Source of the DNA: a virus
DNA length: 44,711 nucleotides
Direction: 5' to 3' (one strand)
IMG/VR virus record: IMGVR_UViG_3300033571_024544
Coordinates: 1 to 44,711 of that record
Both the position numbers and the translations under genes were made by a program. The notes beneath the pieces are model-generated. The model had not been told where the DNA came from, did no database searches, and worked only from the letters and a program-made list of their open reading frames with translations. Of the stretch, positions 1-35,169 are shown piece after piece. The stretch's first letter is position 1; every line of letters starts with the position of its first letter.

Positions 1-122
1 ATAGATTCAATTATTCTATCTTCTCTATCACGATGCCACATAAACTCACCAGAGTCAGTATCTTGTTTAAACTCTCTGATAAATACATTATCTGACATTA
101 CTTCTTCTTTAAATGGTAACAT
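1..122 (-). CDS. Cupin-like phage protein, N-terminal part only
   Basis: This gene runs off the left edge, so only about 40 residues are visible. It starts at an ATG that overlaps the stop codon of the upstream ART-like gene (TAATG), which indicates translational coupling. The visible part ends in a FMWHRDREDR-type stretch. From memory, a W-H-R-D-x-E-D-R signature occurs near the start of small RmlC-like cupin proteins common in phages, whose function is unknown. A second Met (MSDNV) lies eight residues in and could be the real start. No catalytic assignment is possible from this fragment. Confidence 0.5.
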   Translation of the reverse strand, partial: MLPFKEEVMSDNVFIREFKQDTDSGEFMWHRDREDRIIES

Positions 123-706
123 TATAAAATCTTATTAAATTTTTCAATCGAGGATTCATCAAATATTGCCACATTTTTAGAACCTCTTTCTGCAACCATA
201 AATCCATCATATCCTTTTGACTTTATTTGGTTGATAATTGGGTCACATTCTATTATTTGCCAAGAACCATTCTTTATTAGCCAAAGATAGTTATAAACAG
301 TTTGTGAAACATCTTCTAAATCAAATTCCTTTTCTGTATCATAATCAAATCCTTTAAATCCTTTACCTCTATTTGCTATAAATTTTTTACCATTTGTAGG
401 ATCTTCATATTTATCATCTATCATTTTTTGTAATATTGATTTAAGTTCTAACTCTTTCATTGTCTTTACTTGCATCGGATCACATATTTTTAGATTTGAC
501 TTTATTTTTATTTCCCAAACGGCTCCTTCTGGAAACTGTTCTCTTTCATCAAATCCTGCAAAGTTTTTTGCAAAGTCTAAATTACTTGTTAAAAATATAG
601 CACCTGCAAATCTTTTTCTCTTTGGTGGAAAATCTCCTTTTCTATTACCATGATATAGTTTTTCCTCTATAGATTCAAATATTTTATATTCTTTTAAGTA
701 TTTCAT
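122..706 (-). CDS. ADP-ribosyltransferase-like protein with N-terminal packaging-type peptide
   Basis: The protein has 194 residues. It opens with MKYLKEYKIFESIEE, one copy of the N-terminal signature shared by about ten proteins here. It then shows an ART-type beginning (LYHGN at about 17-21), a G-A-I-F-L-T-S stretch and FAKNFAG (about 35-50), resembling the 'YHGT...GiYfT...A..YA' pattern of ART folds. The C-terminal KGYDGFMV...NVAIFD segment is typical of ART domains in phage polyvalent proteins. These enzymes transfer ADP-ribose from NAD+ to a protein. T4 packages its ART (Alt) and injects it to modify host RNA polymerase, so a similar role is inferred. The target is unknown, and the catalytic Glu cannot be fixed by eye. 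The gene lies four bases downstream of the 365-residue gene and shares its promoter. Confidence 0.6.
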   Translation of the reverse strand: MKYLKEYKIFESIEEKLYHGNRKGDFPPKRKRFAGAIFLTSNLDFAKNFAGFDEREQFPEGAVWEIKIKSNLKICDPMQVKTMKELELKSILQKMIDDKYEDPTNGKKFIANRGKGFKGFDYDTEKEFDLEDVSQTVYNYLWLIKNGSWQIIECDPIINQIKSKGYDGFMVAERGSKNVAIFDESSIEKFNKIL

Positions 707-710
707 ATTT

Positions 711-1808
711 TTATGTTATTTTTAATGCATCAAGCTTTGGTTTTACTATCATATAGATACCCACAGATATTACCAATGTGTCTAATACATTTAGTATTGA
801 ACCAACATATGGTATTTTCATGACTGCTGCTTTTATACCTTTTGTAATATCTTCTCCATTAAATCCTACCATTTTCCAAACCTCATCCATCGATTTATCT
901 TGTATTGAGTTAGTTAGTTCATCAAAACCACTTGCCTTTGAGACAAAATCTTTAAATTTCTTTATACTGCCTAAAACTTTATAGAAAATGTATAACTCTA
1001 ATATTTGAAATAAAAAAAAGAAGGATTTTCCAAATCTACTCACAGATTCTGATTTACCTGTTGTCAACCAACCAAAAAATTTATCCATTAGTTGTGATAG
1101 CTTACTTATTCCTTGTTTCATTAAATCCTCAATTTTTGGAATCCAATTAAATGGTGGATAAGTCATTATTTTTTCACCTAGTCTTTGTAAAAATGATTTT
1201 TTCTCTTCCTCTCCATTATCCTCTAATAAAAAATTATCATCTAAATAAATAAGTCCTTCATTAGCTCCTAAGTTTAATACACCTGAAAATGTTTCTGATA
1301 ATCTAGTCACTAAATCTGTTATAATTTGACCTGATGCTATATATTTTAGTAACTCTGATATACTCGTTATATAAGATTTTAGTTTAATTAGTTTTTTATT
1401 TTCTATAAATTCGATTAGTGGTTCTATAAACCCGCTATCTTTTAACGCATGTTCTTTTATTTTCTGTTCCATTGATAAAAATTGTGTCTTAACATAATTA
1501 CCAATTTGTCCTGCTAGTGATTTTGCAAAATCTAATACGTCTTTTGCTTTTTTTGCTAAATCAACTAATAGTTCACCTGCCTTAGATTTTACTGCTAAAA
1601 CACCTCTCTTACCTTTATCTACTAAATCAGAAAACCAAGATTCATTTATCATACCATAGTTAGAATCTATTAGTATCTTCTCATTTATAGTTAAATGACT
1701 TTCATATAATGAATTGAATATCATAGAAAAGTTAGATATATCATTACTATCAATACCCTCTAATATATTTATTTCTGAAAAATTCTCGTATGTCTTTAAG
1801 TATCTCAT
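711..1808 (-). CDS. Predicted internal virion protein with C-terminal hydrophobic segments
   Basis: I do not recognise a family for this 365-residue protein. It starts with MRYLKTYENFSE, the shared N-terminal signature, followed by I-L-E, which matches the [IL]-x-E form cut by the T4 prohead protease. The middle is rich in amphipathic helices with many Lys and Leu. The C-terminal third has two strongly hydrophobic stretches (about 265-283 and 335-355) that could enter a membrane. An ATATATA element sits exactly 4 nt before the ATG. The gene is first in a minus-strand unit with the ART-like and cupin-like genes. A packaged, possibly membrane-active virion protein is an inference from the N-terminus and hydrophobicity only. 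Confidence 0.6.
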   Translation of the reverse strand: MRYLKTYENFSEINILEGIDSNDISNFSMIFNSLYESHLTINEKILIDSNYGMINESWFSDLVDKGKRGVLAVKSKAGELLVDLAKKAKDVLDFAKSLAGQIGNYVKTQFLSMEQKIKEHALKDSGFIEPLIEFIENKKLIKLKSYITSISELLKYIASGQIITDLVTRLSETFSGVLNLGANEGLIYLDDNFLLEDNGEEEKKSFLQRLGEKIMTYPPFNWIPKIEDLMKQGISKLSQLMDKFFGWLTTGKSESVSRFGKSFFFLFQILELYIFYKVLGSIKKFKDFVSKASGFDELTNSIQDKSMDEVWKMVGFNGEDITKGIKAAVMKIPYVGSILNVLDTLVISVGIYMIVKPKLDALKIT

Positions 1809-1811
1809 ATT

Positions 1812-1824
1812 CTATATATAAAAA
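1812..1824 (-). promoter_or_regulatory. Late-type promoter candidate, 4-nt spacing to ATG
   Basis: TTTTTATATATAG is followed by AAT and the ATG at 1808, so there are exactly 4 nt between ATATATA and ATG. It drives the unit of the 365-residue, ART-like and cupin-like genes. Confidence 0.55.
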
Positions 1825-1849
1825 TATTCAGGATAATTTTTATGACTTT

Positions 1850-2812
1850 TTACCAATAACCAGGATATGTCTTACCTCCAAATAGATGTCCAAATTTGTT
1901 AATTCTGCACGCCCAGTAGCCTGCTTTAGTTTTATCTTTCTTAGTATCACACTTATGTCTGGCTGCAAATGATTTTCTTGCTTTAGGGTCACTTACTTTA
2001 GCAGTCAAACCACCATGAACATCACCAAATGAAATCTTTTTAACATTACCAGTTTTAGGATTTTTAACATAAACATGATATTTTTTTGTACCACCACGTC
2101 TAGGTTTATTCAACTCTACTTCTTTACCTTTGTATTCTGCTTCATTTACTTCTTCAATAGTTTCCATTGGTAAATCTAATGGAACTATTACTCCTTCATA
2201 TTCTGCAAATCGACCTATATCAGTTGATTCAAATAATTCAGTATCTAATTCAGATAATTCAATTTGATTTGCATCAAATAATTGTCTTGCTTCTTTAATT
2301 AGGTTAAAGTATTGATTAGATCCAGGTCTAAATACATTTTCTACAATAGGTTTATTATTATCAATATGATATTGTAGATTTTCTGATATTCTACCAGAAA
2401 ATGATTCAAATAGTTTTAAGTATTTCATAGTTTTTCTTTCTTGTATTTTTTTGTCTGCTTCTCTAATTGTAAACCAAGTTGGTACTTTATCCAAAATTTC
2501 TGATTTATCATAACCATACTTTTTATAATCTTCTGGACTTGTAATCTTATAATCATCATTAGGATTTTTAGTAAATTGTTTGATTGTAAAATCAATAATC
2601 TTACCATTGATAATAGGTGCTGTATGTGATTCTTCATCAGAATCAAAATATACTACCTTAACAGGTAATTTATTTTCTTTAGCCCAGTCACAAAAAACAT
2701 TTGTAAACCAAGAACAATTGGCTTTTTCTTTATTAAATGGTTTACCTAATCTTAAATCATACTTTTTAGAATAATCACTAATAAAATCATCTACATGTTT
2801 TTTAATGTTCAT
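1850..2812 (-). CDS. Composite protein: Cys-His-Asp peptidase-like domain, internal packaging-type peptide, basic C-terminal domain
   Basis: The 320-residue reading frame has three parts. Residues 30-75 hold ANCSWF (Cys33), a His near 63 and IIDFT (Asp74), in the order of a papain/transglutaminase-like triad. Residue 129 is a Met opening MKYLKLFESFSG, the signature that stands at the very N-terminus of other proteins here. The C-terminal 75 residues are basic and Cys/His/Trp-bearing (FGD...ARHKCD...GYWACR), a pattern I recall from virion-associated proteins of many large phages. The gene may be a fusion of two genes, or may also be translated from the internal ATG at 2428, giving a 192-residue product. 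A TTAATATATA element lies about 30 nt upstream. Confidence 0.6.
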   Translation of the reverse strand: MNIKKHVDDFISDYSKKYDLRLGKPFNKEKANCSWFTNVFCDWAKENKLPVKVVYFDSDEESHTAPIINGKIIDFTIKQFTKNPNDDYKITSPEDYKKYGYDKSEILDKVPTWFTIREADKKIQERKTMKYLKLFESFSGRISENLQYHIDNNKPIVENVFRPGSNQYFNLIKEARQLFDANQIELSELDTELFESTDIGRFAEYEGVIVPLDLPMETIEEVNEAEYKGKEVELNKPRRGGTKKYHVYVKNPKTGNVKKISFGDVHGGLTAKVSDPKARKSFAARHKCDTKKDKTKAGYWACRINKFGHLFGGKTYPGYW

Positions 2813-2842
2813 ATTATTATAAATGTTTCAATTAATTTTAAT

Positions 2843-2852
2843 TATATATTAA
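2843..2852 (-). promoter_or_regulatory. Late-type promoter candidate for the composite peptidase-like gene
   Basis: TTAATATATA on the minus strand, about 30 nt before the ATG at 2812. It is divergent with the element at 2871. Confidence 0.4.
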
Positions 2853-2870
2853 TTATCAAGAACCTAAAAA

Positions 2871-10540: not shown

Positions 10541-13500
10541 TTATTTTTCTTTTTTCATAGTCAAATCTTCAAGTTCACCAGTTTTAAATCCTTGTTTGTC
10601 TAAAAATTCATCTAATTGAGATGTGTTTCTATTTATATTATTAAGTAAATCAATCATAATATCTAATTGTTGATAAGTTTCACCATATTTACTTTTAGGT
10701 TTATCTTTTTGAATATTATCAGTTTTTTTCCCTTTACCTTCACCAACTACAGGACCTTTTTTTGTTTTATCTGTATCAAGTAGTTGAGCAAATACACTTC
10801 CTTTACTTTCAAGAGTGGTCATCATACTGGCAAATGCTTGTTCATTCATTGCTGCTAATACTGCCATATTACCTGTAAGTCTTCTTATTACATCTACTTT
10901 CTGACCATCAATAGAAGCTAATGCACCACCAAATTTTTTAAGTGCATTTGCCATTTTATCATATGCATTTGCCAACTTAACCATAGAGTTTGCAGTCCTT
11001 GATACTGGATCTAAACCAAATGCAGTTTTTAGTAAACCATCTTCTTCATTAATTTCACCTAACTTTTTAGCCAGTACTGCAAATCCAATTACATTTTTTG
11101 AAAGACTTTTCATAAAATTTGGATCTATAACTTGATTGAATTTTCCCTTGGAAAGTATTGATGCAGTTTCAACTAATTTTCTTGCTACTCTACTTACTGA
11201 ATTTAATTCTATCCAATCAGTATCTTCAAGAGATTTTACAATTCCTACAAAAGAAGTAATTGTGTATTTAATTGAATTAATCCATTCTTTCTTAGGATAT
11301 GAATTCCATATATTTGCTTTAACTGATGCAAATCTTTTTGCAACTGTTATTATGGCTTGAACTACAGAATTTATTCCATATACCATATCACCTGCTGCTT
11401 CTTTACCAGATGTAAACCATCCACTATTTTCACTCATATAAGTAAATATTGGTGCAAATGCTTGTAAGGCAGAACCAACATTCTCTCCCCATGTTTTTGA
11501 AGGTACTTTTGCTATATCAAATAATGCAACATTATCAGAAAATTTTAATGCTGCTGCAATTATACCATCTGATATAGTCAAGATTCCTGATTTCATATCT
11601 TCTGGTGTAACTTTAGTACTAAAGAATCCACCACTACTTAATGCTGCATATACAGGTGCAAATGCTGATATTGCCATACCAACACCTTCTGCCCAAGCTT
11701 TAGATGGTCCACCTGAAAATGCTACTTTTACACCTGCAAAATAGTTTGCAGCATCAACAATTCCTTGAGATACTGTTCTTATTGCATTTGCAAAGTCTTC
11801 TGGTCCAACTCCACCACCAAACAAACTCATTATTTTATTGGCTGCTAACATTGCATAAATTGGAGAGAATGCTCCTAATGCAAGTGCAATTCCACCTGCC
11901 CATTCTAATGTAGGACCACCTGTAAAATTACCTTTTGATAAAATTGCTGCAGAATCAACTATTGTTTGTGCTATCAATAAAACTGCTTCACCACCTGCAG
12001 TTAATGCTGCCATTCCTAATCCAAAAGATAAAAGAATTACACTACCTAATCCTGCCATAGCCAAACCAAATGCAGTTAAACTAATACCAACACCTAAAGC
12101 CCATCCTAAACCAGGATAGTTTGCATATTTACCTTCTGATAAAATATAAGAAGTTGCTACTATAGTTGCTGCTACAACTAAAATGGCAACTGCCCCTGCT
12201 AAAATTGCAACAGCACCAATACCACTTGATGCAATTGTTCCTAATACAAGTGCAGCAGTACCAAATGCTATTAATGATAATCCAACACCTAAAGACCATT
12301 TCCAGTCTGGATATTTACCTTCACTATAATCACCTAATCCTAAAATTAATGAAGTTGCCATTATTGTTGCTGCAATAATTAATATTGATATACCACCTTT
12401 AAGATAATCTTGAGGTTTTCCTATTGCATTTACTATAACTATACCTGCTGCCATTATTGCTACTGATATAGCTAGACAAACACTAAAAAATAAAATTTTA
12501 ATCATTGACATGAATGTTATTCCATCAATCTCTTTTCTGAAATTATAGAAAACTGCAGCAGAGAGTGCAATTGCAACTGCAATTAATGTAAACATAATTG
12601 GAACTTTAATCAAATCATCTGTTGATAGATTACCCATCATTCTCATTGCAACTCCAATTATTACTAAAACAATACCCATTGCAGCACCTAAAATAAGAAC
12701 TTTTAATAACATCATAAATGTTACTTCATTTATTTCTTTTTTATAATTTGAGAATATCACTGCAGAGAGAGCAATTGCCAATGACATTAATGTAAAGAAT
12801 ATTGGAATTTTTGGAACATCCTTGTAATCCATCTTACTTATACTTTTAAGAATTTTCTCCATACCATAAGAAAGAACAACAAAAACTGCTGCAATCAATA
12901 TGGCAGTTAATGCTTGTCCAAGACTTATAGGAGTTATAAAACTTAATATTACTGATGACGCTGCAATTGCCAATGCCATTGCTGGAAGAATAAGTACCAT
13001 TACAAATGCAGACTTCATTGCTTGCATAGGATCTAAACCTTTGAATGCCTTTATTAGTTTACCAATACCAAATGATATTACGGTAAACATACCTGCTATT
13101 AATATAGCTGTTAATGCTTGTCCAAATGATATAGGTGTTATAAAACTTAATACAAAAGAAGATGCTGTTATTGCCATTGCCATTGCTGGAAGAATAAGTA
13201 ACATTACAAATGAAGATTTCATTGCTTCTACTAAATCAACCCCTTTGAATGCTTTTATTAATTTACCAATTCCAAATGATATTACTGTAAACATACCTGC
13301 TATTAATATTGCAGTTATTGCTTGTCCAAATGATATAGGTGTTACCATTTTTAATATCCAAGATGATAAAGTTATTGCCATTGCCATTGCTGGAAGAATA
13401 AACATAATCACTAATGAAGTCTTCATTGTTTGTACTGGATCCATACCTTCAAATGCCTTTACTAATTTACCAATACCAAATGATATTACTGTAAACATAC

Positions 13501-14089
13501 CTGCTATTAATATTGCAGTTAATGCCTGACCAAAACCTATAGGAGTTATAAAACTTAATATAAAAGAAGAAGCAGTTATTGCAAATGCCATTATTACCAT
13601 AACATATGATGTATTCACTGCTTGTTTTATTGGTATATTCATTTCTGCAATTTTCTCAAATGCTATGGATACTAAAACTATTGCTAATGAAAGTCCAACA
13701 ACTGATAAGAAATCTATACTACCAATCAATTTGAATGCAAGACCTATTGCAAGTACACCAACTGCAATTAATAAAATAGTAGAAACTCCCTTTTTCAGGT
13801 TACTTTCTGATTTTTCATCACCACCAACGTCTTCAATTACATTACTTTTCTTGTCTTTTTTCTTAGACATTTCTAATATAGTTTGTTGATTTTCAAGAAT
13901 TTTAGTAGTATCTTTTTTAATTGATTTGATACCAACATTAATTTCTTTAATCTCAGTTGTGAAGTCACCACTTACTAAAGCATTGGTTGTTGCACTATTA
14001 CTTTGCTGTCCTTTTTTCTCAAGTGCTTCAGCAATCATAACAAGAGCTTCTGATAAATTATCTAATCCATCTAATAACTTTTTATCCAT
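10541..14089 (-). CDS. Tail length tape measure protein
   Basis: The protein has 1182 residues. It has a charged, coiled-coil-prone N-terminus (1-100), then a long hydrophobic section with internal repeats, and a charged Lys-rich C-terminus. Residues 186 to about 420 contain a 68-residue unit repeated three and a half times (GQALTAILIAGMF...PAMAMAI...ITPI). Residues about 600-1000 hold looser repeats of the form P-x-x-x-W-x-x-G-V-G-x-A-x-x-A-F. Length, repeats and multiple transmembrane-like helices fit a tape measure, which sets tail length and can form a channel in the host membrane. At about 1.5 angstrom per residue a helical ruler would be near 175 nm (inference). ATATATA stands exactly 4 nt before the ATG. 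Confidence 0.8.
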   Translation of the reverse strand: MDKKLLDGLDNLSEALVMIAEALEKKGQQSNSATTNALVSGDFTTEIKEINVGIKSIKKDTTKILENQQTILEMSKKKDKKSNVIEDVGGDEKSESNLKKGVSTILLIAVGVLAIGLAFKLIGSIDFLSVVGLSLAIVLVSIAFEKIAEMNIPIKQAVNTSYVMVIMAFAITASSFILSFITPIGFGQALTAILIAGMFTVISFGIGKLVKAFEGMDPVQTMKTSLVIMFILPAMAMAITLSSWILKMVTPISFGQAITAILIAGMFTVISFGIGKLIKAFKGVDLVEAMKSSFVMLLILPAMAMAITASSFVLSFITPISFGQALTAILIAGMFTVISFGIGKLIKAFKGLDPMQAMKSAFVMVLILPAMALAIAASSVILSFITPISLGQALTAILIAAVFVVLSYGMEKILKSISKMDYKDVPKIPIFFTLMSLAIALSAVIFSNYKKEINEVTFMMLLKVLILGAAMGIVLVIIGVAMRMMGNLSTDDLIKVPIMFTLIAVAIALSAAVFYNFRKEIDGITFMSMIKILFFSVCLAISVAIMAAGIVIVNAIGKPQDYLKGGISILIIAATIMATSLILGLGDYSEGKYPDWKWSLGVGLSLIAFGTAALVLGTIASSGIGAVAILAGAVAILVVAATIVATSYILSEGKYANYPGLGWALGVGISLTAFGLAMAGLGSVILLSFGLGMAALTAGGEAVLLIAQTIVDSAAILSKGNFTGGPTLEWAGGIALALGAFSPIYAMLAANKIMSLFGGGVGPEDFANAIRTVSQGIVDAANYFAGVKVAFSGGPSKAWAEGVGMAISAFAPVYAALSSGGFFSTKVTPEDMKSGILTISDGIIAAALKFSDNVALFDIAKVPSKTWGENVGSALQAFAPIFTYMSENSGWFTSGKEAAGDMVYGINSVVQAIITVAKRFASVKANIWNSYPKKEWINSIKYTITSFVGIVKSLEDTDWIELNSVSRVARKLVETASILSKGKFNQVIDPNFMKSLSKNVIGFAVLAKKLGEINEEDGLLKTAFGLDPVSRTANSMVKLANAYDKMANALKKFGGALASIDGQKVDVIRRLTGNMAVLAAMNEQAFASMMTTLESKGSVFAQLLDTDKTKKGPVVGEGKGKKTDNIQKDKPKSKYGETYQQLDIMIDLLNNINRNTSQLDEFLDKQGFKTGELEDLTMKKEK
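12830..13534 (-). repeat. 204-bp tandem repeats in the tape measure gene
   Basis: Three and a half copies of a 68-codon unit (about 204 bp) are seen, with nearly the same bases in several copies. Each codes for two hydrophobic helices around the L-P-A-M-A-M-A-I and I-L-I-A-G-M-F parts. Confidence 0.8.
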
Positions 14090-14180: not shown

Positions 14181-14636
14181 ATGGAAATGGGAATCAAAAA
14201 AGTATTGAAGTACTATTTACTTGGAGAATCTCTTAAAGAAATTGAGGTTAATAGAATATTAAATAAAGTTTCAAAAAAGAAGATTTTAACTGAAAGAGAA
14301 AAAAAATTTCTTGAACTTTATAATCATAAAAGTGATGATAAAGATTTGATGTATCTATCTAAGAATACTACTTGTGAAAGAGTTAAGTTCTTTTTAGATG
14401 GTGGTAAAAAAGTAATGTGTGATTTACATGATAGAAATGGTTTAATAGGTTTACCAGTTTTGGATGTAGTGAACAATTATGAAGATGATTTTGGTTTGAT
14501 TATAATGAAAAATGAAACACATCAATTAAATGATAGATTTCTTTATAACTTGATTTATAATAACAAGTTAAATAGATATTCATTACAAGAACAAGATGAA
14601 TATTTTGAAAAATTAGAAGTTAAAAATGGTGATTAA
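14181..14636 (+). CDS. Unknown small protein
   Basis: This 151-residue charged protein has no recognised family. The first 60 residues are Lys/Glu-rich helix (KVSKKKILTEREKKFLELYNH). The region around 60-110 (CERVKFFLDGGKKVMCDLHDRNG) looks like a small beta domain with two Cys. It is divergent from the tape measure gene and has its own TTAATATATAA element 18 nt before the ATG. It overlaps the next gene by 11 nt, so the two are translationally coupled. Confidence 0.65.
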   Translation: MEMGIKKVLKYYLLGESLKEIEVNRILNKVSKKKILTEREKKFLELYNHKSDDKDLMYLSKNTTCERVKFFLDGGKKVMCDLHDRNGLIGLPVLDVVNNYEDDFGLIIMKNETHQLNDRFLYNLIYNNKLNRYSLQEQDEYFEKLEVKNGD

Positions 14637-14910
14637 AAAGTATAATGATTTTATAAAAGAAGAAGTCAGTGGTACTGAACTTATTGGTCCAATTGGACCT
14701 GCATATGGTGAAACTAGACTACAAAATAAAACAATTAACTCATTTGATACTGATGTAATTTATAGTGAGATTGGTGGTAGAATTTATACAATGGATGAGT
14801 ATAATCAAATGTATCAAGATTATCTAAAAGCAGGTGGTGGTCCATTAGATGGTTTTAGTAAAGAAAACTTAGATACAATAGTCTCATTCTTTAATGATAA
14901 ACAAGAATAA
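14626..14910 (+). CDS. Small protein with packaging-type N-terminus
   Basis: This 94-residue acidic protein is not recognised as a family. It begins MVIKKYNDFIKEEVSG, which aligns closely with the T4 capsid-targeting peptide MKTYQEFIAEA (K-Y-N-D-F-I-K-E against T-Y-Q-E-F-I-A-E) and contains an I-K-E tripeptide like the T4 prohead protease cut sites. The rest has Gly/Pro-rich (GPIGPAYGE) and Tyr/Met-rich (YTMDEYNQMYQDY) segments. It overlaps the upstream gene by 11 nt. I infer a small internal head protein. Confidence 0.6.
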   Translation: MVIKKYNDFIKEEVSGTELIGPIGPAYGETRLQNKTINSFDTDVIYSEIGGRIYTMDEYNQMYQDYLKAGGGPLDGFSKENLDTIVSFFNDKQE

Positions 14911-16660: not shown

Positions 16661-16870
16661 ATGAATGGGATAAATATAAGTATGAGAGAAGTTATTGTTA
16701 AGTCAGAATCAAGACCACTTAGAACTAAGTGGACAACTGAATTATCAACTGACTTAGATACATATATTAATAGTGATGTATCTGATGAGTTAGAAAGATT
16801 ATTAGCCAATGAAATTAGAAGAGAAATGAGAAAGAAAAAAATAGAAAAAATCTTGAAACATATTGCTTAA
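16661..16870 (+). CDS. Small phage protein (69 residues)
   Basis: This small basic protein contains SRPLRTKWTTELSTDL and SDELERLLANEI (about 18-52). From memory the pattern R-x-L-x-x-x-W-T-x-E-L recurs in short regions of virion proteins from several phages, but I cannot assign a role. The C-terminus is a Lys/Arg-rich helix. A start at the internal ATG 16682 (MREVIV) is equally possible, because no ribosome binding site decides between them. The gene precedes the polymerase-like gene by 16 nt. Confidence 0.55.
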   Translation: MNGINISMREVIVKSESRPLRTKWTTELSTDLDTYINSDVSDELERLLANEIRREMRKKKIEKILKHIA

Positions 16871-21984: not shown

Positions 21985-22015
21985 AATTTAATTTTTATTT
22001 TATATATAATTTTAT

Positions 22016-26131: not shown

Positions 26132-26143
26132 TTTAATATATAC
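26132..26143 (+). promoter_or_regulatory. Late-type promoter candidate for the effector run
   Basis: TTTAATATATAC lies 27 nt before the ATG at 26171. It supports that start over the one at 26099 and would drive the LRR, zinc-knuckle, isochorismatase-like and SET genes. Confidence 0.55.
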
Positions 26144-26170: not shown

Positions 26171-27868
26171 ATGAAATGGATTAGAAATAGAAACAAATTC
26201 CTTAATGAAGCAAAATTAAGAGATGTTATATTCCCTACACAAGCTAAAGAAGTTGCTTCTAGATGGGGTGAAAAGTATTTAGACTATGAAGAGATAGAAC
26301 CTACAAGTAGTATAGAACAAGGAAGGTGGAAATTAGACTATGAGGATAAAATGGCAGTATTTTCAGCTTTTATGGATTGTGATATGGATGAAATAATTGA
26401 ATTATTTGATAATTTACCACAAGCTTTTGTTAATTTTATTTCTGAGGTAGCATCAGATAACATAAAAGGAATTGATATAAATAAACCTACTTTAGACCAG
26501 TTGGTATTTATTTTTAATCCTGTATTTAGAAAAATATCTGTTAATGATACATTAGCAAATAATATGATTTCTAAAGATGAGAATGGCAGACCTATAAAAG
26601 ATTCTGATGGAAATATGATTAGAGTTGAGAAAGTATCAGGTGAATTAGTTTTAACAAATAACTTAGTTAATATTAATACTATTCTTGATGATTATAATTC
26701 AATGGTTAATAAATATGTAAATGGTAATTTAGGTGACAAGTATAAAAATTCTGATATATTGAATGATGATTTGTTCTATAATAATGACTTACAAAAATAT
26801 GTAAGTGCTGCAAAAGATGATTCAAATTATGATTATGATTGGAAATATGATGTTGAAATTTTTGAAAAAGATATTTATTTATCTATTAAACATAATCCAA
26901 TGGATATATTAAATATGTCTATATCTAAATTCTACTCATCTTGTCAACATTTATATACTGGTGGTCATAGAAGTCAATTACTGGCAAATGTGTTTGATCC
27001 TAATAGTATTCCTGCATTTTTAATTTTTGATTCACCTATTTATAATAAAGAAAATCAAAAAATATCTGATGTAATGCCATTATCAAGAATGCAATTGAGA
27101 AAGATTGAAACTATGGATGAGAATAAGAATGTTAAAATATATTTTGATAGAGCTTATCCTGATAGAATGCAAAATATTTTCCCAGAAATTGTTGAGAAAT
27201 ATACATCAAATAAAGAAGCTGAAACTACAAGTGGTTATAATTATATTTATGCACCAGATATTGATTCAGGTGATGAGAATACATTAGAAAGACCATATCA
27301 TGATAGAATTGAAGGTAGAATTATAAATAAAAAGAGAATAGGTTCTAATATTAGAAGTCTTGACCTTTCTGCTATACATGATTGGAGTAATTTTATTATA
27401 TCACCAAATAATAATCTTAAAGAATTAGTTATTGAAACTACTCAACTACCTGAAAATCTATTAGATCTTAAACTAGAACTTGAATGGGTTAAGTTTAAAT
27501 ATTTGAAGTTAAATACATTAGAACCATTTTCTAAAATATCATATTCTGCTATAGCTTTTGAAAAATGTAAATTTGATAATAAGATATTTACAGATATTTT
27601 AAAGAATACTCCAGATGTTAAAAAGATAAAACTTATAAGTTGTGATAATGCAACAACTCCTAATTTTTCTAAATTCAAAAATTTAGAAGAGTTACACTTT
27701 ATTTATACATTAGATACTATTAAACAATTAGAAAGAGCAATTAGAGGTGTTGAAAGTCTTAAAAGACTTGGAGTATCTGGTGATTTATTAACAAAAGAAA
27801 CAAAACCATTTTTTGATTCATTAAAATCAAAAGGTGTAAAAATAGAAGTAACAGGACCATCTATATAA
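26171..27868 (+). CDS. Leucine-rich-repeat protein with packaging-type N-terminus
   Basis: I start this gene at 26171 (MKWIRNRNKFLNEAK, 565 residues). The longer frame from 26099 would begin upstream of a TTTAATATATAC element at 26132-26143, and the shorter start fits the shared N-terminal signature, including an L-N-E tripeptide. Residues about 60-380 are a helical domain with no recognised family. Residues about 400-545 contain leucine-rich-repeat-like units (SLDLSAI, LKELVIETTQLPENLLDL, VKKIKLISCDN, LEELHFIYTLD). LRRs usually bind proteins. It is the first gene of a four-gene run whose members all carry the signature. Injection into the host is inferred, not shown. Confidence 0.6.
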   Translation: MKWIRNRNKFLNEAKLRDVIFPTQAKEVASRWGEKYLDYEEIEPTSSIEQGRWKLDYEDKMAVFSAFMDCDMDEIIELFDNLPQAFVNFISEVASDNIKGIDINKPTLDQLVFIFNPVFRKISVNDTLANNMISKDENGRPIKDSDGNMIRVEKVSGELVLTNNLVNINTILDDYNSMVNKYVNGNLGDKYKNSDILNDDLFYNNDLQKYVSAAKDDSNYDYDWKYDVEIFEKDIYLSIKHNPMDILNMSISKFYSSCQHLYTGGHRSQLLANVFDPNSIPAFLIFDSPIYNKENQKISDVMPLSRMQLRKIETMDENKNVKIYFDRAYPDRMQNIFPEIVEKYTSNKEAETTSGYNYIYAPDIDSGDENTLERPYHDRIEGRIINKKRIGSNIRSLDLSAIHDWSNFIISPNNNLKELVIETTQLPENLLDLKLELEWVKFKYLKLNTLEPFSKISYSAIAFEKCKFDNKIFTDILKNTPDVKKIKLISCDNATTPNFSKFKNLEELHFIYTLDTIKQLERAIRGVESLKRLGVSGDLLTKETKPFFDSLKSKGVKIEVTGPSI

Positions 27869-29277
27869 TGAAAGAATTAAAATATATACAACTTTTTGAA
27901 GCATTTGAATCTAGTAAACTATCTAAGACATTAAAGTTTATTAATAAACAATATAGAAGTAGATTTTTACAAGATATAAAATCATTGTGTAATTCAAAAA
28001 ACTTCCCATTATCTGAGATAAGTGATGATTTGTTTGAATATCTTCCTTATAGAAAGGCACTTTCACTTCATAAAGATCCTGTTCAGAAAAAATGTAGTGC
28101 AACTTCTGAAAGTGAATTTAGTTCTGGTGTGGCAATACCTGGTGAAAAGTGTGAAGAAGGTAAACTAAAAAGAAGTTGGGGTGCTGGTAGAGTTAGAGTT
28201 ATGACTTGTCCTAATTGTAATGGCACAGGAATTGAACCATTCAGAGAAAATTGGAAATATCTTAAATTTTGGTTTAGTGCTGATAAAAAGTATGTTGCAA
28301 AAACTGCAACAAATGGTGTCATTTATGGTGATGGTACAAGTCCATATAGATATGATAGAAATGTTGGTATAAGTTATGGTTCAATTGGTGCATCAGGATG
28401 GTATTGGAGTGAAGAAGTTCTTAAAAAGTCATTGAAAGAAGCCAATTTTGCATTAGTACTTGATTTAGATAAATTAGAAAAGAAATCTAAAAAAGTAAAA
28501 AATACAAAAATAACACAAGATAATAGAGAGAAAAGTAGAGAAAATGCACTTGCACTACAAAGTAATCAAGATATTAAAGACCAAAACATTAGAAGATATT
28601 TTGATGCTCTTATAGAAAAAAGTAAACTTAAAGGTAACTTAGATGATATTAAAAACTTACATAAATTAGTTTCAAGATTTATGTGTGGTAATTATCCATT
28701 ATTTGCATTACATCCTTCAAGTGATGTTGATTCTATGCGTAAGATAAATAGTATTGGTGAAGATATTTATGGTATTATGGTTTCTTTACAAAAAGATAAT
28801 AGTCAAGGAAACCAAAACTCACTAATAACTAAAATACACAATGTAAATGGTAATATTAAATCATATCTTAATGGTTTGAAAGAATATAAAATTAGAATTA
28901 AGAAAAGTTTAGAACTAACTAAATCATATCTTAATTCTCAGTCAGAAAGAACAAAAGATTATAGATCTGTTAAATTATTTAATAATATTATGGAGATAAA
29001 TAATCTTATTTATAAGTATGTATCTAATTATAAAGTTGAGACTTTATATGATTATGAGTCACTATTAGCAGATTTGACAACAATTACTGAGTTATTTGAT
29101 CAAAAAAGATATTTATATGATGTTAGATATTTCTTTGAAAAAACTTCATCTAGATGGAGTTGGGATGATGCAAAAACTTATTTAACTGATAGACATCTTT
29201 ATGATAGAGAAATTGAATCTGGACTTGAAGGTAGTGAAAGATTTATACAATTCTTAAAAAATAAATATTCTTTATAA
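27868..29277 (+). CDS. Zinc-knuckle-containing protein with packaging-type N-terminus
   Basis: No family is recognised for this 469-residue protein. It opens MKELKYIQLFEAFESSK, a variant of the shared signature with an L-F-E tripeptide. Around 110-125 there is C-P-N-C-N-G-T-G, like half of a DnaJ-type zinc ribbon, and two earlier Cys (C72 and C91 area) could supply the other ligands. The segment after it (LKFWFSADKKYVAKTATNGVIYGDG) has an alternating pattern, and the C-terminal half is long charged helices (about 215-469). The start overlaps the previous stop by one base (TAATG), so the two are coupled. Its place among packaged-type proteins suggests a virion-borne effector. Confidence 0.55.
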   Translation: MKELKYIQLFEAFESSKLSKTLKFINKQYRSRFLQDIKSLCNSKNFPLSEISDDLFEYLPYRKALSLHKDPVQKKCSATSESEFSSGVAIPGEKCEEGKLKRSWGAGRVRVMTCPNCNGTGIEPFRENWKYLKFWFSADKKYVAKTATNGVIYGDGTSPYRYDRNVGISYGSIGASGWYWSEEVLKKSLKEANFALVLDLDKLEKKSKKVKNTKITQDNREKSRENALALQSNQDIKDQNIRRYFDALIEKSKLKGNLDDIKNLHKLVSRFMCGNYPLFALHPSSDVDSMRKINSIGEDIYGIMVSLQKDNSQGNQNSLITKIHNVNGNIKSYLNGLKEYKIRIKKSLELTKSYLNSQSERTKDYRSVKLFNNIMEINNLIYKYVSNYKVETLYDYESLLADLTTITELFDQKRYLYDVRYFFEKTSSRWSWDDAKTYLTDRHLYDREIESGLEGSERFIQFLKNKYSL

Positions 29278-29898
29278 ATGAGACATTTGAAAATATATGA
29301 AGATTTTAATAAAGGTAATGGAATCTTAATTATAGTTGATGTTCAAAAGTCTTTTAAGAAATTTTTTACAGATAATTACATAACTGCACTTAATAAGTAT
29401 TGTCAGAGTTTTAAGGATGTTTATCAAATATGGGATAATCATATTGATGGTAAGAATGTTGATAAAGATTATCTATATGATGAGAATCCAGATATTCCAG
29501 TTCATAATGACTTATATAGTTTCCCTAATCAAAGAGATATGATTGAAAAAAGATATAACTATGATGTTGATGCAGATTTTTATAAAAAGATATTAGATGA
29601 AAAGGTTTATAATGATATTAAACAAAAAGAAAAAAATCATCTATTAAATAGAGGTGATTTCTTTAAAACTACAGAAGATACCTATCTTATCTATATTGGT
29701 AACAATCATAAATGGTATCACTTACCTAAGAAGTTACAAGAGTTATTTACTAACTTAAAAGGTAAAGAGGTTGTAATGGTTGGTGGTTCTGACCAAGAGT
29801 GTTATTTAGATGTAGAAACTGCAGCAAAAACTTTTGGTGTTAAAATTAGAAGAGATAATAATTATATTTATTCTGCTACATTTTGTCCAATAAAATAA
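29278..29898 (+). CDS. Isochorismatase-like cysteine hydrolase with packaging-type N-terminus
   Basis: This 206-residue protein starts MRHLKIYEDFNK (shared signature with I-Y-E), followed directly by G-I-L-I-I-V-D-V-Q-K-S-F, the first strand and catalytic Asp of the isochorismatase/nicotinamidase family. Late in the protein, V-V-M-V-G-G-S-D-Q-E-C-Y (about 168-179) places the nucleophile Cys at the family position, followed by T-A-A-K-T-F-G. The catalytic Lys cannot be fixed by eye. Family members hydrolyse nicotinamide, isochorismate or N-carbamoyl compounds; the substrate is unknown. It abuts the previous stop (TAAATG) and lies 10 nt before the SET-domain gene. Confidence 0.7.
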   Translation: MRHLKIYEDFNKGNGILIIVDVQKSFKKFFTDNYITALNKYCQSFKDVYQIWDNHIDGKNVDKDYLYDENPDIPVHNDLYSFPNQRDMIEKRYNYDVDADFYKKILDEKVYNDIKQKEKNHLLNRGDFFKTTEDTYLIYIGNNHKWYHLPKKLQELFTNLKGKEVVMVGGSDQECYLDVETAAKTFGVKIRRDNNYIYSATFCPIK

Positions 29899-29908: not shown

Positions 29909-30358
29909 ATGAGATACTTAAAAACTTTTGAAAATTTTGATTTTGATAGAATTGATTCTGATGAATCAGATTATTTATATGTAGAAACTTCACAGATACC
30001 CAATTCTGGTAAAGGTTTATTTACTGCAATAGATATTGAAAAGGATGAAGTTATTTCAGTATTTAAAGGAGAAATACTTTCAGATGAAGAGATAAAATTA
30101 AGAACTGAATCAGGGAATGATGATTATTTTATGAATCTACCAAATGGTGACATATTAGATTGTAAACAAACTGATTGTTTTGCTAAATATGCTAATGATG
30201 CTGAAGGTTCTGATACAGGATTTAAAAATAATTGTATCATTTCAATGGAAGAAGATGATGTTGTTTTAGTTGCAACAAGAAATATAGAAGCAGGTGAGGA
30301 AATATTTGTTGAATATGGTGAAAACTATTGGCAAAATAATTCTTATAGACTTAGCTAA
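29909..30358 (+). CDS. SET-domain protein (lysine methyltransferase-like) with packaging-type N-terminus
   Basis: This 149-residue protein begins MRYLKTFENFDFD, the shared signature. It is followed by a compact SET domain: G-K-G-L-F-T-A (about 33-39), V-I-S-V-F-K-G-E, then F-A-K-Y-A-N-D-A and N-N-C-I at the site of the R-x-x-N-H-S knot. It ends with G-E-E-I-F-V-E-Y-G-E-N-Y-W, equal to the E-L-[TF]-x-D-Y motif. SET enzymes methylate protein lysines with S-adenosylmethionine. The size is like the viral vSET enzyme (about 119 residues). The canonical NHS is altered to ANDA, so activity is likely but not certain. It is the last gene of the run and converges on gp25 with an 8-nt overlap. Confidence 0.75.
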   Translation: MRYLKTFENFDFDRIDSDESDYLYVETSQIPNSGKGLFTAIDIEKDEVISVFKGEILSDEEIKLRTESGNDDYFMNLPNGDILDCKQTDCFAKYANDAEGSDTGFKNNCIISMEEDDVVLVATRNIEAGEEIFVEYGENYWQNNSYRLS

Positions 30359-30734: not shown

Positions 30735-30758
30735 TATATATAAAAATTTTATATATAC
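30735..30758. promoter_or_regulatory. Palindromic divergent promoter between gp25-like and ART-like genes
   Basis: A near-perfect palindrome holds TTTTATATATAC on plus (ATG at 30763, 5 nt after ATATATA) and TTTTTATATATA on minus (ATG at 30728, 6 nt). Confidence 0.55.
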
Positions 30759-30762: not shown

Positions 30763-31683
30763 ATGAAATATATGAAAACATATGAGTTTTTCTCATCAGG
30801 ATTTGGTAGTTCATCTTCACCAAGATTTTCAAGTTTAGGTAGTTTTATTACTTGGGCTGACAAAAGATATAGAGAAGAAGAATATGATGATGAAGAATTT
30901 GAGGAAATTATCTCTATATTAGAGAATGAGTGTAAACAATTTCTTGATGAGGTAAAAGAAGGTAAAGTAGGTCCTATTTTTAGAGGTGCAAAAAATATTG
31001 ATGATACTTATACTAAAGGTCTTGGAGTTAAAGGTTCTAGAATTGATAGAGCACCTCTTGATACTAGAAGAGATGTATCAAAGATTTTAGATAATTGTTT
31101 TGAGGAAAAATTTGGAGTTAAACTAAGAAGTAGTGGAGTTTTTGCTTCTAAACTACCAACTGTTGCAAGTGATTATGGTAGACCTTATTTATTTTTCCCA
31201 ATTGGTGATTATGAATATTTTTGGAATCCAGATGTAAAAGATTTATATGGTGATATTGAAGGAACACATTGGTATTACATTGATGAAAGTGATTGGGAAT
31301 GGCAATATGGTCCAGGAAATAATGGTGATTGGTGTTATGATGGACTTGAGTATGATAATGATATTATAACTGCAGTTAAAAGAGTTAAAGAAGATAATAC
31401 TGACTTATCAAATAAGTCATTTGAATATGTTCAAAAACTTTTAGATTGGGAACCTGCATGTAGTATTGAAGACTATATGCAAGGAGCACAAGCAGAATTA
31501 CAAAATAATTTAGAAGATATAGTAAGTGGATATGTTAATAATCAAATGGATAAGATAGTTGACCAAGAAATAACATTTGTTTGTGATAAATACTATTTAG
31601 TTGATCCTGCTTTTTATGTCAAATATTTAGAATACTTAAATGATAAGAATTTAGATGAATATAAAAAAAATAACCCAGATTAA
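30763..31683 (+). CDS. Second ADP-ribosyltransferase-like protein with packaging-type N-terminus
   Basis: This 306-residue protein begins MKYMKTYEFFSSG (shared signature). It then has P-I-F-R-G-A-K (about 69-75), R-S-S-G-V-F-A-S (about 121-128), A-S-D-Y-G-R-P-Y-L-F-F-P-I-G and F-W-N-P-D-V-K-D-L-Y. This order (R-G, then [RS]-S-x-G-V-F-A, A-x-x-Y-G, F-P-I-G) is one I know from ART-like proteins of large phages. The first Arg and the S-x-G strand match an ART NAD-binding core, but the catalytic Glu is uncertain. The C-terminal 80 residues are an acidic helix. It has its own TTTTATATATAC element 5 nt before the ATG and ends in a bidirectional terminator shared with the clamp loader gene. Confidence 0.6.
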   Translation: MKYMKTYEFFSSGFGSSSSPRFSSLGSFITWADKRYREEEYDDEEFEEIISILENECKQFLDEVKEGKVGPIFRGAKNIDDTYTKGLGVKGSRIDRAPLDTRRDVSKILDNCFEEKFGVKLRSSGVFASKLPTVASDYGRPYLFFPIGDYEYFWNPDVKDLYGDIEGTHWYYIDESDWEWQYGPGNNGDWCYDGLEYDNDIITAVKRVKEDNTDLSNKSFEYVQKLLDWEPACSIEDYMQGAQAELQNNLEDIVSGYVNNQMDKIVDQEITFVCDKYYLVDPAFYVKYLEYLNDKNLDEYKKNNPD

Positions 31684-32651: not shown

Positions 32652-32693
32652 ATAATTTCCTTTACATGATATATTGAAATTACAAAGAAAAGT

Positions 32694-32707
32694 TTTTTAA
32701 TATATAC
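32694..32707 (+). promoter_or_regulatory. Late-type promoter candidate for gp15-like gene
   Basis: TTTTTAATATATAC is one of the fullest matches, 5 nt between ATATATA and the ATG at 32712. Confidence 0.6.
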
Positions 32708-32711
32708 AAGT

Positions 32712-33614
32712 ATGATAGGAGAAAGATTTAATTTTGAAGATGTATTTTTTAGAGACCTTACAATTTGTGTACTTGATACATTAGAAGGACAAGTAAAGTG
32801 GATTAATAGATTTTCATCAGGTGATAAATATGTGAATGTACCCTTCTATTACTCAATGACAGGTGATGAAAGATTTTTATTAGATTCATTTGTTGATGAT
32901 ATAGTTTCTGGAGATTCTTCTGGTAATGGTAGATATGTTGAATTAAATACAGATATTATACCAAGAGGACATGTCACAATGACTGGATTTAATATTAGAG
33001 CTGATGAGTATGCAAATCCAAATGTTTGGTTAAGAACAGTTGTTGAGAATGAAGTAGAGATAAGAAAATTAATTGGTAGAGTTAGATCTGTTCCTGTTTC
33101 AGTCACTTATGACTTGGAAATATTATTATCAAGTGAATTAGATATATTTAAGTGTAGTCAATCAGTTATGGATACCTTATGGATTTATAAGTTTATGTAT
33201 TTTGAACATAACTTTATGAATATAGATGCTGTTATTTTGATGCCTGATACAAATGGTATAGAAATATCAAGAGAAAAAAATCTGACAAGTGATAATATGG
33301 TTAAGTTAAAAGTTTCTTTTGAAGTACAAACTTATTATCCTGCATTTAGAAAAGATAGAATTGATATGCCAGGATATTCAAAAGGAACAGGACAATCAGA
33401 TATGAATGGATATTCAATTGAAGGAGGTTTCTCTGATTACTTTAACCAACCAGGTTCCACACAATCAAGCTATTACAATCAAGATAATTACTTTTTACAA
33501 CCAAAAAGAACAAGATGGTTTAATAATATATTAAGAGCAAGGGAACAATCAAATGCAAGAAATGATAATCCTAGTTCAAGAGGAATACAAAATAGGAATA
33601 CTAATAAAGATTAA
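32712..33614 (+). CDS. 15: Tail terminator / sheath stabiliser (gp15-like)
   Basis: This 300-residue protein matches the order of T4 gp15 (272 residues). It has S-G-D-K-Y-V-N-V-P-F-Y-Y near 36-47 (T4 SGDKFIRVPITY), D-I-I-P-R-G-H-V near 81-88 (T4 ILPRINLHL), and P-V-S-V-T-Y-D-L-E-I-L then W-I-Y-K-F-M-Y-F (T4 PIKMIYELSIF). gp15 caps the tail tube and sheath and joins the neck. The C-terminal 60 residues are Gly/Ser/Asn-rich and disordered-looking. TTTTTAATATATAC stands 4 nt before the GT preceding the start codon (5 nt after ATATATA). It is the first gene of a plus-strand run. Confidence 0.8.
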   Translation: MIGERFNFEDVFFRDLTICVLDTLEGQVKWINRFSSGDKYVNVPFYYSMTGDERFLLDSFVDDIVSGDSSGNGRYVELNTDIIPRGHVTMTGFNIRADEYANPNVWLRTVVENEVEIRKLIGRVRSVPVSVTYDLEILLSSELDIFKCSQSVMDTLWIYKFMYFEHNFMNIDAVILMPDTNGIEISREKNLTSDNMVKLKVSFEVQTYYPAFRKDRIDMPGYSKGTGQSDMNGYSIEGGFSDYFNQPGSTQSSYYNQDNYFLQPKRTRWFNNILRAREQSNARNDNPSSRGIQNRNTNKD

Positions 33615-33635
33615 TAAAAAGTGGGAAAAAATGGC

Positions 33636-33655
33636 TTTTTAATATAAATATATAG
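33636..33655 (+). promoter_or_regulatory. Late-type promoter candidate for the 426-residue gene
   Basis: TTTTTAATATAAATATATAG, about 27 nt before the ATG at 33683. Confidence 0.45.
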
Positions 33656-33682
33656 TATATAAAAAAAATAATATTTAATAAT

Positions 33683-34963
33683 ATGAAGAATCTTAAACTT
33701 GAATTGTTTAACTTCAAAAAGGATCTTGCTTTAGACCAGGAAGAGATATTTGTAATTGTGGAAAGCCATATGAATGCTTGTAATCAACACTCTGAGAAAA
33801 CTATAATTACTTCACTTAATGAAAGATTAAAGCCTTATACTTATGATAAGGATGTTAAATCTTTATTAGAGAACCTTAATGATGATGTAGCAAACTATGA
33901 ATTGTTATATGAATTAAAAAACTTATATAGTGTCCTTAATTCTAAAAATCAAGGTGAACTTTATAGACAACCTATAAATGTTTTACTACAAACTATTAAT
34001 TTAGAGACTGATCAAGATAGAATGTCAAAAGTTCTTAATGAGTTAGCAGTTTATGACTGGGTTCCAGAAATTAAAGTATTTGTTCATAACTTAACTAAAT
34101 CTCCAGAGAAAAGAAATAATCTTTTAAGTGGTGGTAATGCTGAATCAATTTTTACAATTGTTGAGCAAGTTGAAGAAGGACACATTGCATTAGTTAGAGA
34201 TTCTTGGTTTTTATTAACTGAAAATTCAATTGAAAAAACTTTATTAGAAAACCATGTTAAAGATATGGAAGCTTTACAAAGTTTAAGAACATTGGAAACA
34301 GCTATGAAATATGCCTCAGTTACTGAAAATAGAATCAATTTCAGAATTTCTGAATATATGACTATTGGTTTAGGAGTTGGTAAAAAAGCTCTTTTCATCA
34401 ATGATGATGAATTAAATGGTGAAACTACATTAGAAAGTTTATTTAATTCTCCAATTGTTCCAATTGTAAACAAAAACTTTTATCCAGTTTTATTAGAAAC
34501 TTCTAAAAACTTAGATAAATTTGTTGAATTAGATGTTGTTAAAAGAGTTAATAACTTAATTAATCCTTATTTAGAAGTATTTGCATTCAATTACAAAAAT
34601 AATACATTTGTTTACAGATGTGATGAGAGATATGGTAATTCATTCTTCAAATATGAATCAGCTTTAGAATTAGTAAATGAAGTAAGAAATGAATTAAATT
34701 GTGACTTAACTTATTTCTATGAAAATAAATTAGGTAAAGAGTTAATTGTTAAAAGAAAACTTGAAGATAAAGAAAGAGAAATTACTCTTAAATTGGAAGA
34801 TATTTACTTTAACATTGAAAAAATTAAAGGTTCTATCCAAATGATTGGTGAGTCAGAAACTTTAACAACTGCTCTTAAAAACTTAGAGAAAAGAAGTGCA
34901 AATCTTAATACTGAATTAAATGCAGTTAAAGAATTACAATACAAAGAAAGAATTAGAGGATAA
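33683..34963 (+). CDS. Predicted virion protein, unknown (426 residues)
   Basis: No family is recognised. The N-terminus (MKNLKLELFNFKK) is a weaker version of the shared packaging-type signature. The body is mixed alpha/beta, and the last 60 residues form a charged coiled coil (REITLKLEDIYFNIEKIKG to the end). It follows gp15 and has the late-type element TTTTTAATATAAATATATAG about 27 nt before the ATG. The stop overlaps the next start by one base (TAATG). Position next to neck and head genes suggests a structural or internal head role. Codon use is A/T-rich like the structural genes. Confidence 0.65.
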   Translation: MKNLKLELFNFKKDLALDQEEIFVIVESHMNACNQHSEKTIITSLNERLKPYTYDKDVKSLLENLNDDVANYELLYELKNLYSVLNSKNQGELYRQPINVLLQTINLETDQDRMSKVLNELAVYDWVPEIKVFVHNLTKSPEKRNNLLSGGNAESIFTIVEQVEEGHIALVRDSWFLLTENSIEKTLLENHVKDMEALQSLRTLETAMKYASVTENRINFRISEYMTIGLGVGKKALFINDDELNGETTLESLFNSPIVPIVNKNFYPVLLETSKNLDKFVELDVVKRVNNLINPYLEVFAFNYKNNTFVYRCDERYGNSFFKYESALELVNEVRNELNCDLTYFYENKLGKELIVKRKLEDKEREITLKLEDIYFNIEKIKGSIQMIGESETLTTALKNLEKRSANLNTELNAVKELQYKERIRG

Positions 34964-35169
34964 TGAAACATTTAAAACAATTTAATGAGGGTAAAGAAGA
35001 AATAATGGCAGCCATTGTTGTTAAAATATTTACTTTAATAGGATTTGATGTTGATGATGATGGAATAGTTACTTGTAAAACCAAATTAGCAAGATATATG
35101 AGTGATATATTAGTTAGAGAGGGAAAATTTGAAAAGATTGAACATAATAAATATAAAGCTAAAGTATAA
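34963..35169 (+). CDS. Small protein with packaging-type N-terminus
   Basis: This 68-residue protein begins MKHLKQFNEGKEE, which fits the first half of the shared signature (M-K-H-L-K-x-F). The rest is short and basic (VKIFTLIGFDVDDDGIVTCK) with no recognised family. Its start overlaps the upstream stop by one base, so it is made together with the 426-residue protein. A strong terminator follows. A small internal head protein is an inference. Confidence 0.55.
   Translation: MKHLKQFNEGKEEIMAAIVVKIFTLIGFDVDDDGIVTCKTKLARYMSDILVREGKFEKIEHNKYKAKV

Follow-up and report, generated by a model that had tools for sequence, protein, structure and literature searches.

A 44,711-nucleotide stretch of viral DNA (IMG/VR record IMGVR_UViG_3300033571_024544, positions 1–44,711; here called the window) encodes ten proteins that open with variants of one short peptide, and this shared leader is very probably a capsid-targeting sequence (CTS) of the kind known from phage T4, greatly multiplied. 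The comparison with T4 had been drawn in an earlier reading of the window from its letters alone (the sequence-only reading), and support for it comes from enrichment of the leader at first methionines, a T4 control, the absence of the leader from the replication and structural homologues found with T4 queries, an upstream ATATATA element, likeness to a scaffold, and the record notes of phage PAU. On the best reading, the leaders represent a much expanded variant of the known T4 capsid-targeting system that is new in scale: T4 has three internal proteins (IPs), whereas four relatives of the window have 43–111 tagged open reading frames (ORFs) per genome, 4.5–11% of their ORFs. A passage of PMC12373910 reports at least ten internal proteins in T4-related phages, and the literature searched (mostly open-access papers, bioRxiv preprints excluded) gave no earlier account of a comparable set of tags in huge phages.

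By sequence comparison, the window most likely comes from a “Mahaphage” genome of ~640 kb. Its portal protein is 48–83% identical to those of uncultured phage records of 635–735 kb (closest matches LR745206 and LR756502), 37% to that of a 462-kb record, about 31% to those of Lak phages, and 27% to that of Sphingomonas phage PAU. The part of PMC7162821 that deals with the Mahaphage clade gives complete genomes of 634, 636, 642, and 735 kb, then the largest known, and predicts Bacteroidetes hosts. All six window proteins searched in IMG/VR have a 100% match in a 71-kb contig (3300032323_003202). The comparison genomes were the four relatives (W01–W04, 635–735 kb, W03 being the 735-kb one), Lak-B4, PAU, and T4, and genes were taken from a greedy longest-ORF list with no gene finder.

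Enrichment of the leader at first methionines

The ten shared N-termini were all found where the sequence-only reading had placed them, each starting on ATG. The pattern proposed for them, M-[KR]-x-[LMI]-K-x-[YF]-x-x-F, is exact in the proteins starting at 706, 1808, 2428, 29278, 29909, and 30763, and the other four are variants: the protein at 26171 has no aromatic at position 7, that at 27868 has Ile there, that at 34963 (MKHLKQFNEG) has no second aromatic, and the leader at 14626 (MVIKKYNDFIKEE) is a closer look-alike of the T4 peptide. An [IL]xE tripeptide lies within residues 1–17 of seven of the ten, as had been claimed; those at 29909, 30763, and 34963 are without it.

Four forms of the tag were distinguished, A ([YF]x[ILVM][FY]E), B (the pattern above), C ([YF]xx[FY][ILVM]xE), and D (x-[YF]-N-E). 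A genome search against shuffles, suggested as a check in the sequence-only reading, gave enrichment at the first Met throughout W01–W04: the union of the four forms matched 78/955, 111/996, 71/1037, and 43/946 ORFs, respectively, against 2.15, 2.15, 2.55, and 2.0 expected from shuffled N-termini, and by shuffles some 2–3 of the strict-pattern tags per genome should be chance matches. At methionines after residue 100 the matches were 4/1929, 5/2006, 6/2499, and 1/1665. Judged by first versus internal methionines and by shuffles in these four genomes, the tag sits at the extreme N-terminus and not inside proteins. A slightly widened version of the proposed pattern, applied to genomes from which it had not been derived, matched the first Met in 28/955, 43/996, 0/1037, and 27/946 ORFs of W01–W04 and in 0/643 of Lak-B4, with 0/2371, 2/2485, 0/3067, 0/2052, and 0/2368 matches, in the same order, at methionines after residue 80. 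W03 uses its own form, M..K.[YF]..[FY][IV].E, which is near the T4 peptide. Form D opens 20 W01 ORFs and 27 W02 ORFs at their first Met but none in W03 or W04, and 20 shuffles did not produce it.

With a less strict pattern, K-x-[YF]-x-x-[FY] close to the start, the excess was 60, 72, 69, and 56 proteins in W01–W04 and 7 in Lak. Since the starts of listed ORFs may be wrong, methionines up to residue 61 were counted too, which placed the tag on 96, 125, 85, and 49 proteins in W01–W04 and on 2 in Lak. Some pattern matches are certainly false; that of W04_213251, for one, reads to us as the ordinary beginning of a DegT aminotransferase, and Pfam DegT occurs among the tagged representatives. The Mahaphage forms are not in excess in Lak-B4 (1/643, with 1.85 expected), no form A–D match was found in 44.7 kb of PTm1 (56 ORFs) or in PAU (311 ORFs), and 40 kb of LR756500 (38 ORFs) contain one form-B match. 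Lak-B4 has a small leader of its own, MNKxI[KR]xL[ILVM]ESLFDD, on 6/643 ORFs and 0/2034 internal methionines by a pattern (L2) that was written after its six members had been seen (record positions 21989, 35361, 66938, 225589, 329089, and 500757).

Likeness to T4 leaders, to a protease-fused scaffold, and to phage PAU

T4 IPII and IPIII open with MKTYQEFIAEA, and the section of PMC9026906 on the IPIII leader assigns residues 4 and 7 to targeting and residues 8 and 10 to processing. Forms A, B, and C have two aromatics, with a spacing of three, at the T4 targeting positions 4 and 7; form D and the window leaders at 26171, 27868, and 34963 deviate in this pair. Form C matches the IPIII leader in both residues and spacing, and form B keeps the aromatics in the manner of T4 ipI (MKTFKEF, with a later ITE site). 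With the T4 ORF set as a control, form C picks ipII, ipIII, and gp61.1, to which form A adds gp24.2.

The proposal that the leader is cut after L/I-x-E is borne out in part. Forms A and C include an [IL]xE-like site by definition, and 60 of 121 form-B tags have one at residues 9–20 (14% in controls and 19% in the tags' own shuffles); the other half of the form-B tags are without it. In form B, a residue of the ILVM class at position 9 goes with Glu11 (40 tags with both, 6 and 4 with one, and 71 with neither; p = 5e-21, a value that overstates the case because tags share descent), and this pairing yields IFE|S; the T4 scaffold gp22 has IFES and LFES. Residues 2 and 5 of form B are Lys or Arg by pattern, residue 8 is Glu or Lys in 90/121, and a secretory (Sec) hydrophobic core of at least seven residues was not recognised in these tags, as judged by composition and with no signal-peptide program.

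The features shared with the gp21-cut tags of T4 IPI, IPII, and IPIII are the N-terminal position, a length of about 10–19 residues, aromatics three apart, an [IL]xE site in part of the tags, unrelated bodies, and a protease of the T4-type family in the same genome. In contrast to T4, the sequence is mostly MKYLKxYxxFE, MKHLKxFNE, or MIKKYxxFINE, and the protease is fused to a scaffold-like segment with repeats that resemble the tag. The inner-body or ejection proteins of phiKZ and SPN3US resemble the proposed system in that giant heads hold many cleaved and ejected proteins; the phiKZ cleavage motif, S/A-x-E, is unlike that proposed here, and the passages of PMC9026906 on these phages describe no short tag common to dozens of proteins. 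T4 Alt, which the same passages present as a packaged, gp21-cut ADP-ribosyltransferase effector, differs in starting with MELITELF, without an aromatic pair.

The protease that the sequence-only reading had placed at 43542 matches the head maturation protease family phrog_207 (3.3e-32) and is of the gp21-type prohead class. Its gene (43542–44711, plus strand) is fused to scaffold-like repeats and runs off the window end, which also cuts the tandem 14-residue repeats of type YSEYLAENLDKNI (44337–44711, plus strand; a 42-nt repeat family). The core [YF]xx[FY][ILVM]xE is present in most of the window repeats, with 6 copies in this part and 11–13 in the whole orthologues (W01_198546, W02_225272, W03_73913, and W04_185342). 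A profile built from W03 tags alone ranked the protease-scaffold first for internal matches in 4/4 genomes, with 7, 4, 6, and 5 of 20, 23, 19, and 20 internal matches (W01–W04) and no more than two in any other protein; Lak gave 18 scattered internal matches, and none of its proteins reached four core matches. Likely substrates of the protease show [ILVM]xE, namely the capsid protein (SINE, QINE, QMNE, and QIHE in W01–W04) and the scaffold repeats ([ILV]xE). An 83-residue ORF of W01 (460435–460686, minus strand), far from the protease-scaffold gene, consists mostly of scaffold-like repeats (YEDYIAESLEKNISYSEYISENL...).

In PAU, an unbiased search for residue triples put L7-Y8-E9 at the top, with 14 occurrences against 0.49 expected. 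The leader MK[TS][LI]xxL[YF]E occurs on 18/292 ORFs and at 0/1147 internal methionines. Four of the five coding sequences (CDS) noted as “internal capsid protein” have it (gp142, gp154, gp199, and gp270; P = 5e-5), as does the “scaffolding” CDS gp152. According to a table in PMC5646251, the PAU capsid protein is trimmed from 585 residues to 520, which is close to a cut at its LME site at 64. PAU is a laboratory-grown phage, so its leader set is open to test.

Putative cargo, upstream elements, and alternative explanations

That unrelated bodies follow one tag, as had been noticed in the window, holds across the relatives: the 307 tagged bodies longer than 50 residues (forms A–C of W01–W04 plus the ten window proteins) form 251 families, of which 216 have a single member. 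At E ≤ 0.001, Pfam searches with the 251 representatives in sets of 126 and 125 gave 45 families (25 listed) and 17 families, respectively, among them PPK2, T4-type RNA ligase, a poly(A)-polymerase head with RNA-binding and HD domains, methyltransferases, Sa_NUDIX, GNAT, SET, HNH, RNase_T, and a 2'-5' RNA ligase fold. One tagged protein of W01 (448257–449573, minus strand) combines a 2'-5' RNA ligase-superfamily fold (3e-8) with an RNase_T exonuclease domain (2.6e-7) and has a weaker Acb1 anti-CBASS match that lies below the Pfam cut-off. Ribosomal protein S21, whose N-terminal extensions are called “basic and aromatic” in the part of PMC7162821 that concerns them, was considered as cargo and rejected; its four frames in W01–W04 are only 64–70 residues long, leaving little room for a tag, and Lak gave no match.

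The T4-core homologues fill 96 rows (95 proteins), and the tag appears in three of these: the RnlA proteins of W01 and W02 and a W02 protein with a weak match to lysozyme (5.9e-5), which opens with form D. In RnlA the leader (MKLFKYIEFINEN... in W01 and MKKLHRYNSFIKES... in W02) forms an N-terminal extension ahead of the point at which the W03 and W04 proteins start. The tag is on none of the replication or structural proteins in these rows, and the equal frequency of the motif on replication proteins that the sequence-only reading had named as evidence against packaging was not seen in the replication homologues found with T4 queries. The leader might instead direct proteins elsewhere, to the inner membrane, the replication compartment, or the tail/baseplate, its likeness to the T4 CTS being convergent. 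Many tagged bodies are of unknown function and some have cell-wall domains (PG_binding_1, Glyco_hydro_108), as such destinations would allow, but the matched T4 targeting and processing residues, the resemblance of the tag to scaffold repeats, the PAU internal capsid notes, and the lack of tags on the replication proteins found with T4 queries render this explanation unlikely.

A search of the 70 nt before the start found ATATATA in 135/144 tagged genes; the figures were 17/20 for virion genes, 12/38 for replication genes, and 551/1475 for all other untagged genes with upstream space. Tagged genes number 355, and the 144 are those with upstream space of 30 nt or more; virion and replication genes were hand-picked from T4-core matches and the proteases, with 3/23 and 5/43 dropped for want of such space. 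In the window, this late-promoter-like element stands upstream of the genes at 26171 (26136–26142, plus strand), 30763 (30751–30757, plus strand), and 1808 (1813–1819, minus strand). Many W01–W04 replication genes (DNA polymerase, helicase, gp46, ssb, and rnh) are without it and seem to have another element, an AAACTT-like box with a TATAAT-like hexamer (by eye), perhaps an early or middle promoter.

A late-type element common to the tagged genes, together with upstream information somewhat above controls at a few positions, would suit first codons that enhance translation or expression of late genes, with the peptide as a by-product, and so would codon use at Tyr3 (TAC in 23/63, background 18%) and Leu4 (CTT in 4/76, background 17%). 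Most other synonymous codons of the tag are near background, however, and selection therefore seems to act on the peptide; an RNA or DNA signal is for the same reason, Tyr3 and Leu4 notwithstanding, not favoured. Homologues of the major capsid protein (MCP), portal, sheath, and terminase, all expected to be highly expressed, are without the leader, and forms A–D differ yet retain the aromatic and acidic positions, which makes an enhancer role very improbable.

Across 403 orthologue pairs of W01 and W02, 19 are tagged on both sides and 18 on one, with about 1.9 of the former expected from the margins (27 and 29); ten genome pairs that include the window gave 34 tagged on both sides, 63 on one, and 1111 on neither. 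Several one-sided cases are pattern near-misses by eye and others are real differences. The class of tag can switch on one body, as in W01_363366 (MIIKKYIKFINEEFDHLK) and W02_385173 (MKYLRTYEGFDHLK), which are 84% identical; the latter leader is our own reading, as Arg at position 5 excludes it from form B. Least credible is the spread by recombination of a functionless 5' gene end, as a shuffling scar or through shared paralogy: arrays of tandem paralogues do occur (LRR-like genes in the IMG/VR contig L251 are one case), but there are 251 body families among 307, K5, F10, and E11 stay while variable positions drift in the 122–706 family, and the RnlA leaders of W01 and W02 lie upstream of the W03/W04 start.

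Several observations weigh against a T4-type CTS. Forms A, C, and D were shaped on the same genomes in which they were counted, and the internal-Met and shuffle controls thus outweigh bare counts. No clear T4-type site is present at residues 9–20 in 61 of the 121 form-B tags, and the link between Glu11 and position 9 possibly reflects common descent of the tags. One-sided tags outnumber shared ones (63 versus 34) and dominate among the more distant pairs; ATATATA also precedes a share of replication genes, and the Tyr3 and Leu4 codons are off background. Among the best 80 of 376 homologues of the 1850–2428 protein, 59 do not match the leader patterns, and 20 of 51 homologues of the 29278 protein have His as the second aromatic, with 6 others deviating. 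In PAU, gp1 and gp10 (“internal capsid vertex protein”) and gp70 (“internal capsid protein”) are without the leader, which is found on 4/7 when all capsid-noted CDS are counted (P = 3e-4, by a pattern written after four of its proteins were seen and with depositors' notes whose basis is unstated), and the loss of 65 residues from the PAU MCP is one more than a cut after LME at 64 predicts.

If the leader is nonetheless a CTS of the T4 type, tagged proteins, which share ATATATA with virion genes, would be made late in infection together with head proteins, and their paired aromatics would attach to the scaffold core as it grows, probably as mimics of the 14-residue repeats fused to the prohead protease; such scaffold mimicry is slightly favoured by the similarity of the sequences. 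Cuts by the protease at [ILVF]xE, both close to the tag and in the scaffold itself, would release the cargo (43–111 proteins per genome by the strict patterns) inside the shell, and on infection the cargo would, by analogy with T4, leave with the DNA and act before any phage gene expression. We incline, with some reserve, to the view that the label is a detached copy of one scaffold repeat, that labels are specific to lineages (MKYLKxYxxFE or MIKKYxxFINE in Mahaphages, MK[TS][LI]xxLYEAKLNEA in PAU, and MNKxIKxLxESLFDD in Lak), and that 4.5–11% of Mahaphage ORFs may be interchangeable cargo delivered before phage genes are read, including RNA ligase 1 (RNA repair), PPK2, the protein with 2'-5' RNA ligase-like and exonuclease domains, and SET enzymes. 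Dozens of “unknown” genes per huge phage would then become predicted injected proteins from about 12 residues, with a bearing on the large genome and head size of these phages, a sequence-based way to find early counter-defence proteins, and new protein-loading tags for phage heads.

Individual leaders of the window

On the minus strand, ORF 122–706 opens with MKYLKEYKIFE (674–706; form A, IFE|S). In seven aligned sequences (the window and 6 of 14 loci found, with the leader itself among the search patterns), K5, F10, and E11 are invariant and residues 2, 3, 4, 6, and 7 vary. The ADP-ribosyltransferase (ART)-like identity suggested for its body is unconfirmed, with no Pfam match and no credible PDB match. 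ORF 711–1808 has MRYLKTYENFS (1776–1808; form B, with ILE at 17). The leader MKYLKLFESFS (2396–2428) begins at an internal Met of ORF 1850–2812, and the body behind it starts ISE|NLQYH. In the best 80 of 376 homologues of the 1850–2428 protein, [IVF]SE before the body is kept in 70 and MSE in 8, and 21 match the leader patterns, which indicates that other targeting routes or tag loss occur. The ORF has a 128-residue upstream part in frame before the tagged Met, and homologues have differing upstream parts or very short starts ahead of the same [IVF]SE site.

On the plus strand, the leader of ORF 14626–14910 (MVIKKYNDFIKE, 14626–14661) is of form C and T4-like, with MIKKFYQFINE in the W01 orthologue. 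That of ORF 26171–27868 (MKWIRNRNKFLNE, 26171–26209; LNE|A) is degenerate, two W04 family members having form C; ATG 26171 is favoured as the start because the ATATATA at 26136–26142 falls within the TTG-started extension of the listed ORF. ORF 27868–29277 opens with a degenerate form A (MKELKYIQLFE, 27868–27900; LFE|A). ORF 29278–29898 has MRHLKIYEDF (29278–29307), and a W03 relative with 35% identity has form C (MKVIKFSDYLKE); the aromatic pair is present in 25 of its 51 homologues, and all 51 leaders precede the same ..I(I/V)VDVQ strand. Pfam and PDB searches, at the limits applied, gave no match to back the isochorismatase-like assignment of its body. The SET assignment of 29909–30358 (leader MRYLKTFENF, 29909–29938; MRYLKTFESF in the W02 orthologue) was confirmed by Pfam SET (4.3e-13). 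The leader of ORF 30763–31683 (MKYMKTYEFF, 30763–30792) is invariant in six aligned sequences (the window and 5 of 7 loci found, the leader again being among the search patterns), and its body has no Pfam match (a PDB search was not made for it). AlphaFold models of the 122–706 and 30763 proteins were poor (pLDDT 59 and 37, respectively) and unusable. ORF 34963–35169 (MKHLKQFNE, 34963–34989; form D, FNE|G) is absent from the greedy ORF list because a longer antisense ORF overlaps it.

Counts from an IMG/VR scan with a form-B DNA pattern are lower bounds. Five IMG/VR contigs (L251, L203, L244, L267, and L268) have tandem arrays of 3–6 tagged genes (MKHIKPYKIFES...), mostly spaced by 600–800 nt, with bodies that are leucine-rich-repeat-like (LRR by eye). 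Elsewhere in the window, a stand-alone 69-residue ORF (16661–16870, plus strand) matches positions 131–196 of the gp23 capsid family (PF07068, 1.6e-9) and has weak relatives in W01 and W02, as a free-standing capsid-protein-like piece. A 1182-residue protein (10541–14089, minus strand) has 204-nt internal DNA repeats and hydrophobic segments, and W03_21458 is similar to it by eye.

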